DNA of 35,940 bases from Candidatus Solincola quzhuomuensis. Lineage in GTDB: Bacteria; Actinomycetota; Geothermincolia; Geothermincolales; RBG-13-55-18. Position numbers and translations under genes: made by a program. Location of the stretch: contig JACVJF010000018.1 of NCBI GenBank assembly GCA_015711855.1, forward strand, positions 1 through 35,940. The letters run 5' to 3'. The notes beneath the pieces were generated by a model. That model was not told the origin of the DNA and searched no databases. It saw only the letters and a program-made list of their open reading frames with translations. This document shows positions 5,028-35,742 of this stretch, in pieces (position 1 is the stretch's first letter; the number at the start of each line of letters is the position of its first letter).

Positions 5028-5840
5028 TTGGTCGTCTACAAGGACGAAGCCATCATCCTACACGCGCACGACCTGGGCGAGGCCGACCGCATCGTATCCA
5101 TGATCACCGCAGGCCGGGGCCTGCGCCGGGCGGTGGCCAAGGGGGTCAAGCGCACCAGCAGCCGGTTCGGAGCCCGTCTGGAACCCTTCACCCACCTTCG
5201 CGTGGTCCTTCACGAGGGCAGAAACCTGGACACCGTGACCCAGGCGGAAATCGTGCGCTCCCACGCGGCGGTGCGCGAGGATTTCGAGAAATTCCTTTTC
5301 GGGGAGGCCATGCTGGAGCTTATAGAGAAGTCCTTGCAGGAAAACCAGACCATTCCAAGACTTTTTGAGATCCTCGAGGTCACCCTGGGGATACTGGAGG
5401 GGGAGGTAAGGGAACCGGCATTACTGCTCTCTGCCTTTCTTTTAAAGACCTGCGCGCTGGTGGGTTACCGTCCACGTCTGGAGGACTGCATCCTCTGTGG
5501 GAGGGAGATGGGCGCGGAGCGTTGCTTCCTGGACCCCGGAGGAGGAGGAGTGGTTTGCTCGGCTTGTAAGGGACAGGTCCCCACGGGGATGCCGCTCAAT
5601 CCGGAGGCCCTAAGGTTGATGCGCAGTCTGCTTGGGGAGAAGATGGCGGGTGCGGCTCGGCGGGAAGAAGAAAACCGCCTCGTAAATGAGGTCATCCGGG
5701 CCTCCTTTCTTTTCGCGGAAAGCGTGCTGGAGCGCCGCTTGAAGTCCCGGTCCGTCGTTTTGGGACACCTGGAGAGGAAGGGGGAAGCCGGACCGGGTGA
5801 AAGCCCTCATGCCACCACTAATACCCGGGAATTAGACTGA
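5028..5840 (+). CDS. recO: DNA repair protein RecO
   Basis: A 270-residue RecO. It helps load RecA on SSB-coated DNA together with RecR in the RecFOR pathway. The N-terminal OB domain is clear (VYKDEAIILHAHDLGEADRI, then GLRRAVAKGVKR). The C-terminal part has a zinc motif with Cys154, Cys157, Cys177 and Cys180 (CILC and CSAC), as in many RecO proteins. The start is TTG, with GAGGAG about nine bases upstream inside the end of uppS; no ATG is available nearby. It is transcribed with uppS and converges on deoC. The last residues are followed by about 350 bases without a protein gene. Confidence 0.93.
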   Translation: MVVYKDEAIILHAHDLGEADRIVSMITAGRGLRRAVAKGVKRTSSRFGARLEPFTHLRVVLHEGRNLDTVTQAEIVRSHAAVREDFEKFLFGEAMLELIEKSLQENQTIPRLFEILEVTLGILEGEVREPALLLSAFLLKTCALVGYRPRLEDCILCGREMGAERCFLDPGGGGVVCSACKGQVPTGMPLNPEALRLMRSLLGEKMAGAARREEENRLVNEVIRASFLFAESVLERRLKSRSVVLGHLERKGEAGPGESPHATTNTRELD

Positions 5841-5888
5841 TGGGGCAGAGAAATTGCAAGTTTTTCTAAAATCCCAGTAAAAAGGGTA

Positions 5889-5917
5889 TTGACCGATTAA
5901 TACTTTGGTGTTATGTT
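5889..5917 (+). promoter_or_regulatory. Sigma-70-type promoter for the small RNA candidate
   Basis: TTGACC (5889-5894), a 17-base spacer and TATGTT (5912-5917) make one of the best matches to the vegetative promoter consensus in the window. Seven bases downstream of the -10 lies the first strand of the closing stem of the RNA candidate, so the promoter points at a transcript that starts in the stem. The next plus-strand protein gene is far away. Confidence 0.7.
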
Positions 5918-5920
5918 TTA

Positions 5921-6056
5921 GATGACCCCGAGAAGCTGGAGGGAAGTCCAGACGGGGGATCCGGAAGGAAGAACCGGAAGGCGCAAGCCGGAAGGGGAAG
6001 CCGGAAGGGTAACTCGTAGGGATGGACCAAAGGTTACTCGGGGTCACTCCTTTTTA
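5921..6056 (+). ncRNA. Candidate GGA-rich structured small RNA (CsrA/RsmA-sponge-like)
   Basis: No protein frame is convincing here, but the sequence has RNA-gene architecture. TGACCCCGAG (5923-5932) pairs with CTCGGGGTCA (6037-6046), giving a 10-bp closing stem followed by CTCC and TTTTT, like an intrinsic terminator. Inside are CTGGA/TCCAG with loop GGGAAG (5936-5951), TCCGG/CCGGA with loop AAGGAAGAA (5960-5978), CCGG/CCGG with loop AAGGGGAAG (5988-6004), and GTAAC/GTTAC enclosing AGGGATGGA (6009-6037). Eleven GGA triplets lie between the arms, several in predicted loops. AGGGATG matches the core of the CsrA consensus (ARGGAUG). This is the design of CsrB/RsmZ-type RNAs that sequester CsrA. 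No csrA is in the window, so function is inference. It does not match SRP RNA, RNase P or 6S RNA as far as I can see. Confidence 0.55.
5961..6008 (+). repeat. Four short direct repeats of CCGGAAGG
   Basis: CCGGAAGG occurs at 5961, 5974, 5988 and 6001, with periods of 13, 14 and 13 bases. Because CCGG is self-complementary, neighbouring copies can pair and present the purine-rich GGAAG stretch in the loop. The repeats lie inside the small RNA candidate. Confidence 0.85.
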
Positions 6057-6188
6057 TTCTCATGAACGGCTACCCGATTTCCGGTCGCGTTAAATCACCT
6101 TAGGCCTTGGACGAACGGGTCGACAGCAGCCCGGCACGCGGAGCGAAGTCGCTGCCCGGCGGCCAGTCCTGAGGCATAAATCCCGGGC

Positions 6189-6923
6189 TCATTTGTTCCA
6201 AGGTAGGATATGCAGGTATTCGCGTAGTATGCCAGAGGCGGCACTGGTCCCGATGCGGTTGGCCCCCGCCCTCACCATCTCCACCACATCCGCCAGGGTA
6301 CGGATTCCCCCGCTGGCCTTCACGCCGAAACCCGGCCCGACCACTTCCCGCAGGAAGCGGACGTCCTCCGCGGTTGCTCCCCTCGGTCCGAACCCGGTGG
6401 AGGTCTTCACGAAATCGGCGCCCGCCTCCATGGCCAACTCCGCTCCCCGCCTCATCTCCTGCCGGCTCAGGTAACAGGTCTCCAGGATGACCTTCACCAC
6501 CACGTGCCCCTCGCCCTTTCCCGCGTCGTAGCGTCGCGCCAGACCCACCACCGAGGCGATGTCCTCCTTCACCCGCTCCCACCTCCCCGAACGAAGGGCG
6601 GATATGTTTATGACCATGTCCAGTTCCCCGGCCCCCTGTTGGAGGGCGAACACCGCCTCCGCCTTTTTGGCGTCGGTGGACTGATAGCCGAAAGGGAATC
6701 CGACGGGAGCACCCAGGGCCACCCCGGTCCCCTTCAGCTCCATGCGGGCCATGGGCAGGTAGTAGAGGGGGACGAAGACGGAGCGGAACCGGGCGTCCGC
6801 CGCTTCTCTAAGGAAGTCGAGGTACTCGCGCTCGTCGGCCTCGGGCCTCAGGAGGGTGGCGTCCAACAGGTAGGTTAGGTGCCCCACGCTGGGGAACATC
6901 TCCAGGATTTGCTCTCTTTCCAT
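6189..6923 (-). CDS. deoC: Deoxyribose-phosphate aldolase
   Basis: A 244-residue class I aldolase that cleaves 2-deoxyribose 5-phosphate to acetaldehyde and glyceraldehyde 3-phosphate in deoxynucleoside catabolism. The Schiff-base lysine lies in VVVKVILET (about Lys144) and the second active-site lysine in FVKTSTGFG (about Lys173). The acidic partner is in GELDMVIN (about Asp102). GVKASGGIRT and GANRIGTS form the phosphate-binding end. The segment that usually reads V-C-V-x-P here reads SVFVPLYY, so the common cysteine is missing; it is not essential in the mechanism. The ATG at 6923 is preferred over the GTG four codons earlier because GAGGA lies five bases before it. It is the last gene of the era-mgtE-deoC stretch, 22 bases after mgtE. 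Confidence 0.93.
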   Translation of the reverse strand: MEREQILEMFPSVGHLTYLLDATLLRPEADEREYLDFLREAADARFRSVFVPLYYLPMARMELKGTGVALGAPVGFPFGYQSTDAKKAEAVFALQQGAGELDMVINISALRSGRWERVKEDIASVVGLARRYDAGKGEGHVVVKVILETCYLSRQEMRRGAELAMEAGADFVKTSTGFGPRGATAEDVRFLREVVGPGFGVKASGGIRTLADVVEMVRAGANRIGTSAASGILREYLHILPWNK

Positions 6924-6945
6924 GGGCTTCCTCACGTGTAGACCG

Positions 6946-24462: not shown

Positions 24463-24547
24463 TGGTGCGAGAGGGGGGACTCGAACCCCCACGGTATGAA
24501 CCACTGGATCCTAAGTCCAGCGCGTCTGCCGATTCCGCCACTCTCGC
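24463..24547 (-). tRNA. tRNA-Leu (anticodon TAG)
   Basis: An 85-base cloverleaf with the acceptor pair GCGAGAG/CTCTCGC, discriminator A and encoded CCA. The anticodon stem is CTGGA/TCCAG with loop CTTAGGA, giving TAG, which reads CUA and related Leu codons. The long variable arm (GGTTCATACC region) is typical of class II Leu tRNAs. Confidence 0.97.
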
Positions 24548-24618
24548 CCGGTCTGGGGAGCGATAAATATGCTACTACAGGCACCCGGGCATGGCAACAA
24601 AACCCGGGCGGGTTGTTA

Positions 24619-24624
24619 TATAAT
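24619..24624 (+). promoter_or_regulatory. -10 box for the tRNA-Arg/His pair
   Basis: A perfect TATAAT 22 bases before tRNA-Arg. No clear -35 is seen. Confidence 0.5.
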
Positions 24625-24645
24625 AGGTGCTGCACTTTGAGGCGA

Positions 24646-24721
24646 GCGCCTGTAGCTCAAAGGATAGAGCAACGGACTTCTAATCCGTGGGTTGGAGGTT
24701 CGAGTCCTCCCAGGCGTGCCA
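24646..24721 (+). tRNA. tRNA-Arg (anticodon TCT)
   Basis: A 76-base cloverleaf with acceptor GCGCCTG/CAGGCGT, discriminator G and encoded CCA. The anticodon stem is ACGGA/TCCGT with loop CTTCTAA; anticodon TCT reads AGA/AGG. It is followed after nine bases by tRNA-His, probably in one transcript. Confidence 0.97.
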
Positions 24722-24730
24722 AAAAAACGC

Positions 24731-24807
24731 GGTGGGGGTAGCTCAATCGGCAGAGCACTGGGTTGTGGCCCCAGAGGTCGCGGGTTCGAGTCCCGTCCCT
24801 CACCCCA
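24731..24807 (+). tRNA. tRNA-His (anticodon GTG)
   Basis: A cloverleaf with acceptor GTGGGGG/CCCTCAC and anticodon stem CTGGG/CCCAG with loop TTGTGGC (anticodon GTG). The extra G at 24731 opposite the C discriminator is the G-1 identity element of tRNA-His. CCA is encoded. A run of seven T residues follows at once. Confidence 0.97.
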
Positions 24808-24828
24808 TTTTTTTGGAGAAAGGCCCTT

Positions 24829-25410
24829 TCAAGGGAGTTCCCGCTCCAGGCCTTGCGTGCTCCGTCTTTCCTCCCTCCTCCTCCGGAAGATGGGCACCGC
24901 CGACAAGAGAAGGAAAGCCGATGCACCCAAGGAAGCCCACCACTTCCACGGCTCCGGCGAGACGTCCACTTCCCGACCGGGCTCCAGCACCCTCACCTCC
25001 AGGGCGTGGATGTCGAAATCGCCCCCGTGCTCCCCGCAGTCGGCGTGGAACACCCCCGTAATCTCCAGGTAATCTCCTCGTGACCCGTGCCTTCCCAGCC
25101 GTTTTATTCTCTCCGCCTCGGAGGCCGGCATCCATACCCCTATGCCGCTGTTTCCGCCATGCAGTTCCCCCGCCTCGTGCAGAGCTCTTAGGCTGTAGGG
25201 ATCGTCATTGACCGCTACCCAGGCGAAATCCCCCCTCCAAAGGACGTCGCCCACGGCCTCGCCCTTGAAGATCACCTCTTTCCCGTCGTACTTCTCCCAT
25301 TCTTGAAGGAGGAGCCCGCTGTCCACCTCCATTCCCTCCGCCGCCGTCACTGCCGGGAAGCAGAGGCAGACCGCCGCGATGACCATGGCCAACGCGAGCG
25401 CGGTTTTCAT
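24829..25410 (-). CDS. Exported or membrane-anchored protein of unknown function
   Basis: A 193-residue protein that I do not recognise. It begins with a signal-peptide-like segment (MKTALALAMVIAAVCLCFPAV, with a possible cleavage site after TAA near 23). An extracytoplasmic beta-rich domain follows (about 30-150), with YDGKEVIFKGEAVGD and a short-chain pattern suggestive of an OB-fold (DFAWVAVNDDP, GIGVWMP, DYLEITGVFHADC). A C-terminal membrane segment (about 160-178) ends with a basic RRRREERR tail inside. The ATG overlaps the trkH stop (ATGA) and follows GGAGGGGGAG, so it is translationally coupled to the transporter. A role near the transporter is inferred from that coupling only. Confidence 0.7.
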   Translation of the reverse strand: MKTALALAMVIAAVCLCFPAVTAAEGMEVDSGLLLQEWEKYDGKEVIFKGEAVGDVLWRGDFAWVAVNDDPYSLRALHEAGELHGGNSGIGVWMPASEAERIKRLGRHGSRGDYLEITGVFHADCGEHGGDFDIHALEVRVLEPGREVDVSPEPWKWWASLGASAFLLLSAVPIFRRRREERRSTQGLERELP

Positions 25411-26909
25411 CTCCCCCTCCTCGTCCACCGGAAGAGAAAGGCGAACATGGCCACCACCGCCAGCACCTCCAGTCTTCCTGCCCACATCTCGAAAATGTAC
25501 ACCACCTTGAGAAGCGTGGGCATGGCGAAGGAGGTCACGCCGGTGGTGAGCCCCACGTTGCCCGCCGCGGATACCGATTCGAAGGCGGAAGCGGTGAGCC
25601 CGTACCCATAGAAAAGACCCACCAAGGTACCCAAGAGATAAAGTCCCAGGTAGAGGAGGGTCACCAGGAAGGCGGTGGCGGTCAACTCCTGGGTCAGCAC
25701 GTAATCGCGGATATGGTGGAAGCGCTCCACCACCACCGCCGAAGCGGGGGAGAGAGCCCTTTTGGCCCTCAACTTCAGCTCCTTGCCCATAATCCCCACC
25801 CTTATGGCCTTGATGGCCCCCGATGTGGAGCAGGAACATCCTCCCAAGGCCATGGCTATGGTGAGGGCGAAGAGAGCCAGGTCTCCCCACCTCGCTCCCA
25901 TCTGCGGACCGTATACGGTCATGAACCCGGTACCGCTATGACCCGAGACCAGTTGGTAGGCCCCGCGGCGCAGGTCGGCGGCGAATCCCCCGAAGGTCCC
26001 GGCGAGGGTCAGGCCGGCCAGTACCATGGCCAGGGTGAGGAGCAAGGTGAAGGCCAATGTGCGGTTCTCGATGTTCTTGACCAGCTCGCGGGGCCTTCCC
26101 CTCCACACCTCGTACTGCACGGCGAAGTTGAGCATGCCCAAGACCATGAAAGCAATGGTGATGAGCTCCACGGGCAGGCTGTGATAATAGAGCACGCTCA
26201 TGGACTGGGGGGTGAAGCCCCCCGTGTCGAACCCGGCCATGAAAAGGCATGCGGCATGGAAGAAGGAGCGTACCGGGGTCATCCCCTCCAATATGAGGCA
26301 CAGGCCCAGAGATACGGTACCCGCTGCCAGGTAGGCCACGCTTACCCGCCATATGAACCGGGAACTCTCCACCACGTTAGGGAGTATGCTCTCCCGCCCC
26401 TCGCTCACATAGAGCTGGGCGGCGGCGCTGGAACCGGCCATGAAATAGGAGACCACCAGGACGACGATCCCTTGGCCACCCAGAAACATTATGAAATGAC
26501 GCCAGAAGTTCATCCCATAGGCCATGTGGTCCAGGTCATGGACCAGGGTTAGACCCGTGGTGGCCAGACCGGACATGGATTCGAAACAGGCGTCGAGGTA
26601 GGAAGCGTAATGACCGTTCAGGTAGAGGGGAAACGCCGAGAAGAGCATGGCTGCCAGCCAGGAAAGGGCCACGATGACCAGACCCTGGTTCCAGGTCACC
26701 CTCCCCCGGGGGCGCAGGAAAAAATAGAGGAGGTCCCCCGCGGCCACGGTCAGGCACAGGGATATGAAGAGATCCAGGGCGCTCGCCCATTCCCCGGCCA
26801 CCAGGGAGATGACCAGGGGCACGGCCATGCACAATCCCAGGGCGATGAGGACCAACCCCACGTTGTGGAGGATGTTCTCCAGGTCCTCGCGGTATGTGCT
26901 GATCTTCAC
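25407..26909 (-). CDS. TrkH/KtrB-type potassium transporter membrane subunit
   Basis: A 500-residue polytopic protein of the superfamily of K+ transporters, with four membrane-pore-membrane repeats. The pore loops carry the filter-like glycines: LATTGLTLV, AGFDTGGFTPQS, SGHSGTGFMTVYG and AAGNVGLTTGVT. It would take up K+ across the membrane in association with an NAD(P)/nucleotide-binding TrkA/KtrA subunit. No such subunit lies in the window. The start is GTG behind GGGGGAG. Downstream it is coupled to an exported protein, and upstream (about 80 bases) is an unrecognised gene on the same strand, so the three may form one unit. Confidence 0.92.
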   Translation of the reverse strand: MKISTYREDLENILHNVGLVLIALGLCMAVPLVISLVAGEWASALDLFISLCLTVAAGDLLYFFLRPRGRVTWNQGLVIVALSWLAAMLFSAFPLYLNGHYASYLDACFESMSGLATTGLTLVHDLDHMAYGMNFWRHFIMFLGGQGIVVLVVSYFMAGSSAAAQLYVSEGRESILPNVVESSRFIWRVSVAYLAAGTVSLGLCLILEGMTPVRSFFHAACLFMAGFDTGGFTPQSMSVLYYHSLPVELITIAFMVLGMLNFAVQYEVWRGRPRELVKNIENRTLAFTLLLTLAMVLAGLTLAGTFGGFAADLRRGAYQLVSGHSGTGFMTVYGPQMGARWGDLALFALTIAMALGGCSCSTSGAIKAIRVGIMGKELKLRAKRALSPASAVVVERFHHIRDYVLTQELTATAFLVTLLYLGLYLLGTLVGLFYGYGLTASAFESVSAAGNVGLTTGVTSFAMPTLLKVVYIFEMWAGRLEVLAVVAMFAFLFRWTRRGR

Positions 26910-26992
26910 GCCGGCTCCCCCTATTGGTTAGGCCGCAAGTCGGTCTAGAAGGTGCCGCACTTCCCGCTCGACTGTGCCGTCCGCTTTAAGGG

Positions 26993-27619
26993 TCAATCCG
27001 CCAGGAGGGAAAGGCGGCTGACCACGGCCCGCGAAACGGGCCGGAAATCGCCCATATCGTGGGAATACCGGCATTCGCAGAGCGGGCCGAGGTCTCGACC
27101 GGCCCAACTGCAGCGGGCATCGGTCACCGTGTATATCTTTTCCAGACGAAAACGTACGTGCCTTCCCAACTCGGTCACCCCCACGATCCTCTGGCCAGGA
27201 TCGGTACCCAGAAGAGGCGCCGCCAGGCGGGGCAGCAAGCGGCAGAAGATGCGGTTCGCGGCTACCGCTTCCGGGAGGTGAGGGGTCAGGCGGTTGGCCA
27301 GGCGCAGGACTTTATCCTCACCGTATGCGACCTCCAGGCGCAGGATTCCCCTCTCCCCGGTATCCACTTCCAGGATCCACTTGCCGTCCCGGCGGCGGGA
27401 GTTTATGGAGGTCACCACCCTCCGGTCAAATCGGTGGAGGGAGGAGACCAGTTCCCCTCCCTCCTTGCCGTCCACGTAGAGCGTACGATAATCCTCCGGC
27501 GTGAAGTGAAATACGGCGCGGTAAGGACCCGCCGGAGTCTCCTCCCAGTCCTCGACCAGGAAGACGTCATCAGGTCCGAACTGAAGGGTGGGGATGAACC
27601 AGCCCTTCTCCACGATCAT
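26993..27619 (-). CDS. Protein of unknown function
   Basis: A 208-residue soluble protein with no signal or membrane segment, and no family that I recognise. It looks beta-rich (GPYRAVFHFTPEDYRTLYVDG, KWILEVDTGERGILRLEVAYG) and has a helical segment in the middle (AVAANRIFCRLLPRLAAPLLG). Single Cys residues near the C-terminus (RCSWAG, LCECRYSHDMG) might bind metal. The overall pattern, an opening beta-sandwich and a later variable part, looks like a small-molecule or lipid-binding fold, but this is a guess. The ATG follows GGGAG at eight bases. It lies upstream of trkH on the same strand and beside tRNA-Pro. Confidence 0.7.
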   Translation of the reverse strand: MIVEKGWFIPTLQFGPDDVFLVEDWEETPAGPYRAVFHFTPEDYRTLYVDGKEGGELVSSLHRFDRRVVTSINSRRRDGKWILEVDTGERGILRLEVAYGEDKVLRLANRLTPHLPEAVAANRIFCRLLPRLAAPLLGTDPGQRIVGVTELGRHVRFRLEKIYTVTDARCSWAGRDLGPLCECRYSHDMGDFRPVSRAVVSRLSLLAD

Positions 27620-27696
27620 CTTTAGCTCTCCCTAATTATCTGCCCCGGCGGAGGGCGTCCCATACCGCAAAAGCAAGACCTCCCCGCGGTAAAATC

Positions 27697-27774
27697 TGGT
27701 CGGGGTGGGCGGATTTGAACCGCCGACCTCATGCTCCCAAAGCATGCGCGCTGACCAAGCTGCGCCACACCCCG
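27697..27774 (-). tRNA. tRNA-Pro (anticodon TGG)
   Basis: A cloverleaf with acceptor CGGGGTG/CACCCCG, discriminator A and encoded CCA. The anticodon stem is CATGC/GCATG with loop TTTGGGA; anticodon TGG reads CCA and other Pro codons. The T-stem GGCGG/CCGCC is perfect. Confidence 0.97.
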
Positions 27775-27847
27775 ACGGGTAGATTATAGCAGCGCTTAAA
27801 GGAACCGGATAAGAGCGTCTTTTTGGCCCCTTTCCGGCCATCGCCGA

Positions 27848-27858
27848 TGTGTTAAAAT
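27848..27858 (+). promoter_or_regulatory. Extended -10 promoter for tRNA-Gly
   Basis: TGTGTTAAAAT, an extended -10 box 29 bases before the tRNA. It differs by one base from the elements before mreB and murI. Confidence 0.5.
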
Positions 27859-27887
27859 TATCTCGCCGGGGAGATCCCGGAAGGCGA

Positions 27888-27963
27888 GCGGGAGTAGCTC
27901 AGTTGGAAGAGCGAGAGCCTTCCAAGCTCTAGGTCGCGGGTTCGAGGCCCGTCTCCCGCTCCA
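27888..27963 (+). tRNA. tRNA-Gly (anticodon TCC)
   Basis: A 76-base cloverleaf with acceptor GCGGGAG/CTCCCGC, discriminator T and encoded CCA. The anticodon stem is AGAGC/GCTCT with loop CTTCCAA; TCC reads GGA/GGG. About 265 bases follow to the end of rdgB without a gene; they hold only GC-rich hairpins (for example CCTCCCG/CGGGAGG) with no T-run. Confidence 0.97.
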
Positions 27964-35393: not shown

Positions 35394-35742
35394 GGGGGCG
35401 AAACGGCTTCGACAGGGATCGGCGGCCGCGGTGGGAGCGAGCCGGGGTCCCGCGCCCCGTCAACAAGCGGGAAAACAAATAAACGCCGACAGCGAGTTGG
35501 CACTGGCCGCATAAGAGATGCGGCCCGTTCCTCCCCGGGTGGCCCGTGACCGGGGAAGGGACGTCATTCAGCGGGCTTGCCGAGGCCCGACTCCCGTAAG
35601 GGCCGAGGGACAACCCGACGGGATAGCTCCCGGTTAGCCGTTCGCCGGGCGAACCGGGGGCGAAAGCGAAACGGCGAATACGCTCGTAGAGCCCACGCGG
35701 TCGGATTTCTGGACGGGGGTTCGACTCCCCCCGCCTCCACCA
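35394..35742 (+). ncRNA. ssrA: Transfer-messenger RNA
   Basis: A 349-base tmRNA. It opens GGGGGCGAAACGGCTTCGAC and ends with the tRNA-like T-arm GGGGGTTCGACTCCCCC, acceptor CGCCTCC, discriminator A and encoded CCA. The acceptor pairs GGGGGCG with CGCCTCC (one G-U). The tag frame follows AAATAAAC and reads GCC GAC AGC GAG TTG GCA CTG GCC GCA TAA (35485-35514). This gives ADSELALAA, a short tag of nine residues with the ClpX-recognised LAA end. Pseudoknot-type arms lie in between. It works with SmpB, encoded just upstream. Confidence 0.98.

Follow-up and report, generated by a model that had tools for sequence, protein, structure and literature searches.

A conserved rod-shaped small RNA of the Geothermincolales with symmetric purine loops and a palindrome at its promoter

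The window, by which we mean the whole 35,940-nucleotide stretch of DNA that was analysed, carries a stand-alone RNA gene at 5889-6056 of the forward strand, consisting of a promoter, an RNA body and a T-run. That this RNA exists as a structured and conserved gene can be stated with high confidence, and it belongs to a previously undescribed family; literature searches, for which subscription papers fell mostly outside coverage, returned no description of it. The gene, its sigma-A-type promoter, the rod structure of its product, the conservation of all these and a palindrome shared with one other locus were established computationally. Taken as a whole, the best reading is that of a protein-binding regulatory or scaffold RNA which represents a new family and is controlled through the palindrome, a reading to which we assign a probability of roughly 0.55. 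The initial annotation of this DNA had proposed a small RNA that is rich in GGA, stands alone and has its own promoter, and this much has been confirmed.

The source genome of the window (contig C17) is 2.69 Mb in size and 96% complete, and belongs to an uncultured actinobacterium from a hot spring (order Candidatus Geothermincolales, class Candidatus Geothermincolia, Actinomycetota). The promoter comprises a -35 element, TTGACC (5889-5894, +), and a -10 element, TATGTT (5912-5917, +), separated by a 17-nt spacer. Both can be recognised in the sequence and by a promoter scan, in which this pair, already named in the initial annotation, is the sole sigma-70-like promoter in 5700-6250 (0.2 +- 0.5 in shuffles). 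The TTGAC core is kept in nearly all members, inside Geothermincolales and beyond. The rod-shaped non-coding body of about 127 nt extends from 5922 to 6048 (+), as judged from the extent of the match to covariance model R1, from the fold and from covariation. It is followed at 6049-6056 (+; Ts at 6051-6055) by a T-run, visible in the sequence, that in combination with the basal stem resembles an intrinsic terminator; most relatives also have a T-rich run after the RNA. The 10-bp stem that had been described ahead of these Ts is indeed present, with 5923-5932 pairing with 6037-6046. A simple terminator scan returns no short-loop terminator at the locus, because the stem preceding the T-run closes the entire rod. 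Upstream, the end of recO (Pfam RecO_N/RecO_C) lies at 5840; downstream, deoC (6189-6935, -) is convergent with the RNA gene, in agreement with the earlier statement that the RNA is not a leader. The same window contains five tRNA genes and a tmRNA gene, at 24466-27960 and 35394-35742.

BLAST finds clear relatives of the RNA at the levels of genus, family and order, in 14 genomes altogether. R1 detects exactly one copy in each of 17 of the 18 Geothermincolales genomes, the sole genome without a match being 62% complete, and detects none in the remaining 13 genomes of the class. The window RNA was itself one of the 15 sequences behind the model, which matches it with an E-value of 2.2e-31. The RNA lies directly 3' of recO, on the same strand, in 17 of 17 genomes, with deoC mostly convergent, and the DNA, promoter and structure of the gene are conserved throughout the order, with stems that covary. 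The forward strand has a fold z-score of -4.3, equalled by 0 of 200 shuffles, and the reverse strand one of -1.4. In a 17-sequence alignment fitted to the model, 92% of the cells are paired and 15 of 35 pairs show double-sided changes (39 cells), with 0 of 500 shuffles attaining any of these measures; when the partners are slid by one base as a control, pairing falls to about 50%. A MAFFT alignment built without structure agrees, with 13 of 36 pairs doubly changed and 0 of 500 shuffles reaching this count, and while kinship alone can beat such shuffles in the absence of structure, it rarely does so in the number of doubly changed pairs. Members range from 105 to 127 nt in length, differ from one another in ways that break the frame and share no common ORF, all of which argues against a peptide-coding reading. 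The open frame of 44-45 codons that starts at the 5' end of the RNA (window 5922-6056, +) is limited to the window's genus, and the peptide reading was rejected.

The RNA is one unbranched, covariation-supported rod in which helices of 2-10 bp are separated by internal loops. At its base, the 5' strand UGACCCCGAG-A-AGCU (5923-5937, +) pairs with the 3' strand GGUU-A-CUCGGGGUCA (6032-6046, +) in the covariation alignment; 99% of the cells of this basal stem are paired, and four of its pairs show double-sided changes. Read from the base, the rod runs from UGACCCCGAG/CUCGGGGUCA through a purine mismatch and AGCU/GGUU to a GGA/AAA loop, GG/CC and a variable middle. The conserved GGA and the GG after it occupy 5938-5942 (+), the GGA facing AAA at 6029-6031 and the GG pairing with CC at 6027-6028. 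The middle and upper rod (5946-6023, +) consists of short helices between symmetric purine loops, namely AG/AG, GG/AA, GGAA/GGAA, AAGAA/GGAAG and GGAA/GGAA, and the upper part that follows the middle reads AUCC-GGAA-GG-AAGAA-CC-GGAA-GGC-GCAA-GCC-GGAA-GG-GGAAG-CC-GGAA-GGGU. Its best-conserved part is the apical hairpin GGC-GCAA-GCC, with a GNRA-type loop (5980-5989, +).

The four CCGGAAGG repeats reported in the initial annotation are found at 5961-5968, 5974-5981, 5988-5995 and 6001-6008 (+), at a spacing of 13/14/13. They had been thought to form local hairpins, a reading that fails: the pair probability of such hairpins is at most 1e-4 in the window sequence, unit 1 would be disrupted by substitutions in 6 of 14 sequences, and double changes are absent from the local pairs. 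Covariation instead pairs unit 1 with unit 4 and unit 2 with unit 3 within the rod, leaving GGAA opposite GGAA, and the inner G-C pair that joins unit 1 to unit 4 (pair 46-81) shows a double-sided change in seven members, mostly to A-U. Symmetric loops account for 108 of the 119 internal loops in the 17 members (39% in shuffles), purines for 743 of 763 loop bases, or 97% (92% in shuffles), and 16 of 17 sequences fold into a single hairpin (6% of shuffles). The length of the rod and the sequence of its middle vary among members, with pairing retained. For the window RNA, the largest internal loop is 5x5, and the eleven GGA triplets that had been counted are all present in the 127 nt, four of them fully paired. 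Under established RNA chemistry, GGAA/GGAA loops are naturally read as tandem G.A pairing, and from sequence we infer G.A pairing in the loops of the rod.

The promoter of the RNA gene carries a second conserved feature. In most members of the order, the spacer between -35 and -10 reads TAATACynnrGT(g/a)(g/t)TA; in the window, this promoter palindrome (O2, TAATACTTTGGTGTTAT, 5898-5914) fills the spacer and overlaps the -10 element. About half of the members have a second, partly degenerate copy some 80 bp upstream. The window's upstream copy (O1, TAATACCCGGGAATTA, 5819-5834) overlaps the end of recO and matches TAATAC-N4-GTATTA at 11 of 12 positions; a 12/12 version lies at the same position (-101 to -104) in two other genomes, G003 and G007, and weaker versions (9/12) are found in several others. 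The candidate regulator palindrome can be written out as TAATACCNNGGTATTA. Searching 17 genomes for TAMTACNNNNGTAKTA returned 22 distinct sites, of which 6 lie at the promoter of the rod RNA, 14 lie upstream of a single further locus and 2 lie elsewhere; the reversed control pattern returned 4.

That further locus encodes a second RNA of about 390 nt, found in the window's genome at G000:C6:16138-16614 (+) (L131) and represented more widely by loci L128-L142. It is an extremely conserved non-coding region preceded by the TAATAC-N4-GTATTA palindrome and closed by a strong terminator; all 18 Geothermincolales genomes have a match to it, and some 52 contiguous nt are invariant across 15 aligned genomes. 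Rfam has no match for it. Such near-exclusive sharing of the palindrome suggests a dedicated regulon of the rod RNA and the second RNA, and we infer a single transcription factor that would serve just these two RNA genes. The predicted energies of duplexes between the two RNAs differ from those of shuffles by no more than about two standard deviations, and the gain on cofolding is about 0 in 12 of 14 genomes. Beside the second RNA, loci L119-L124 encode an uncharacterised but conserved protein that bears a CPxCGLP...RKLVWTxDGGIYF motif and has no Pfam family, and a zincin-like metallopeptidase is encoded nearby.

R1 also returns matches in other Actinomycetota, which are weak but patterned. 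In family f24, to which Candidatus Aquicultor belongs, four genomes have matches of 168-179 nt; elsewhere the matches measure 89 nt (G294), 78 nt (G098 and G276), 66 nt (G255) and 49 nt (G058). They sit in unrelated gene contexts, and nearly all have a TTGAC-type promoter closely upstream and a T-rich run behind the same basal stem; the occurrence of probable relatives in other contexts with a promoter and T-run of their own indicates that the RNA is not a cis leader. The GGA-GG / CC-AAA arrangement is found again at L052 and L053, and at L053 the internal loops are mostly symmetric and purine, with a GNRA-type cap. Going by a basal stem that is short and E-values that are moderate, the RNAs of Aquicultoria and other Actinomycetota are probably homologues that share the basal stem and differ in rod length; the CCCCAAG/CUUGGGG terminator stem could, for its part, have arisen more than once. 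Matches at L055 and L062 are tandem repeats and were judged false, and a Verrucomicrobia record (L065) has no model match. A head-only model, R2, is blind to long rods (it misses the window RNA) and mostly reports short hairpin RNAs.

Other small RNAs were seen in the same survey. Family f11, made up of small AT-rich actinobacterial genomes, has an RNA of some 190 nt that consists of two rods, is preceded by a TTGACA promoter of its own and contains a GGAGGCAAC motif (L081, L082, L086, L088-L092, L094, L095, L099, L101 and L061). The model matches one to six places per genome, and in the scanned loci nothing from Rfam exceeds the gathering score. Families f14 and f49 (L097, L100, L103-L106), both of GC-rich actinobacteria, have small hairpin RNAs with one match per genome, a CCCAAGAGGCUGAGUAGAGAAC...CCCCAAAGGUCUCUUGGG stem that is conserved, with a variant form in L103, and, in some, a visible TTGACA-like promoter.

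Rfam 15 has no match in the window's RNA region even at E <= 10, hence none to any known unrelated family, and no match above gathering score among the relatives tested. The bacterial SRP RNA resembles the window RNA in being a short rod with a GNRA-type cap, and CCGGAAGGAAG, a string of the window RNA, occurs in the SRP RNA of E. coli too. The window RNA differs in lacking an Rfam match and in coexisting with a distinct SRP gene: RF00169 matches G000:C11:34080-34179 instead, and a separate SRP RNA gene is present in 17 of 18 genomes. Y RNAs, the partners of Ro60, likewise combine a conserved basal stem with a body that varies in length; this identity was rejected, with a TROVE/Ro protein found in one of 18 genomes of the order, not the window's, and no Rfam match. 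A string in G011, AGAGGAAAGUCC, which we take to resemble a conserved stretch of RNase P RNA, is not kept in other genera and was set aside. Since true 6S and SRP RNAs coexist with the window RNA, it is not one of these known RNAs in disguise.

A 6S- or Ms1-like regulator of RNA polymerase would fit a single-copy, unbranched rod with its own promoter and terminator that is found order-wide, as these are features of both RNAs. The window RNA, however, lacks the large central bubble of 6S, and its genome encodes a canonical 6S RNA at another locus, G000:C9:10199-10386 (-) (L127), where RF00013 scores 69.8 bits and matches in place of the window; 15 of 18 genomes of the order have it. For at least part of the Actinobacteria, 6S has been described as missing (PMC9130861). 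Ms1 itself measures about 300 nt and lies beside a HAD-IB hydrolase gene (PMC9130861), while the window RNA measures about 130 nt and is flanked by recO and deoC. The window RNA thus falls outside both families as defined, and a 6S- or Ms1-like role is quite unlikely. The initial annotation had favoured a sponge of the CsrB/RsmZ type, whose GGA-bearing hairpins titrate CsrA. Like CsrB, CsrC and RsmX/Y/Z, the window RNA is a stand-alone small RNA with its own promoter and many GGA triplets, eleven of them regularly spaced, and its length is similar to that of RsmX/Y/Z, which are just over 100 nt (PMC9037510). Its triplets, however, lie in the internal loops and helices of a single rod and never in a hairpin loop, and the local hairpins that would present them have no support. 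Of the 18 Geothermincolales genomes, 7 encode CsrA (PF02599), this one not among them, and 17 carry the RNA, so that most carriers are without CsrA. No CsrB/RsmZ family is matched in Rfam, and the AGGGATG motif, present in the window genome as had been stated, is missing from other genera of the order. The sponge reading, already largely refuted, is thus hardly credible.

A base-pairing small RNA, or an anti-Shine-Dalgarno decoy acting through the GGAG, GGAGG and GGAAGG tracts, is on the whole unlikely. These tracts do resemble Shine-Dalgarno sequences, and GGAGG-type motifs recur in the probable relatives, but they lie within a stable rod whose loops measure at most 5 nt, and pairing is kept while the rod itself varies. 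Base pairing is the less likely role because the rod is tightly paired and its duplex with the second RNA is no stronger than shuffles; the unpaired purine runs of the rod, at most 5 nt long, likewise make a decoy less likely. The earlier fallback of another GGA-binding partner stands in part: a different protein-binding RNA is the best current reading, and the decoy has lost ground. A structural RNA that acts with the 390-nt RNA as part of a single ribonucleoprotein or regulatory circuit is a minor possibility, one to which the placement of 20 of 22 palindrome sites at the two loci and the presence of both RNAs throughout the order lend weight; no direct pairing is predicted, however, and a common regulator does not imply a common particle. 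The position between convergent genes and the T-run end would also suit a mere terminator, insulator or decayed element with no function of its own, yet the conserved promoter and operator, the covariation far up the rod and near-universal retention in the order make this very unlikely.

On the preferred reading of a protein-binding regulatory or scaffold RNA, an RNA of about 130 nt would be transcribed from its own sigma-A-type promoter and end at the T-run. A protein would recognise the regular ladder of G.A loops in the rod, together with two conserved elements, namely the GGA/AAA loop that follows the basal stem and, at the apex, the GGAA/GGAA-GNAA element, and the RNA would then act as a regulator or scaffold. 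A transcription factor bound at the TAATAC-N4-GTATTA palindromes would set the amount of RNA and would act at one other locus, that of the second large RNA. The purine loops could also have been conserved for RNA-RNA packing, for the sake of a ligand or just for stability.

Stand-alone structured RNAs present once per genome throughout an order often do central work, as in the case of 6S, SRP and tmRNA. The rod RNA has no Rfam family and an unusual build, with nearly every internal loop symmetric and purine-only. A broader reading, which we offer tentatively, is that of a new class of rod RNA in which symmetric, G.A-rich loops form a ladder. The class would be ancestral to the basal Actinomycetota, meaning Geothermincolia, Aquicultoria and probably others, and the RNA would act through a protein that binds the G.A ladder and form, with the second RNA, a two-RNA regulon under one factor. 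A palindrome that points almost only to two RNAs provides a handle, as the factor that binds it would reveal the circuit.
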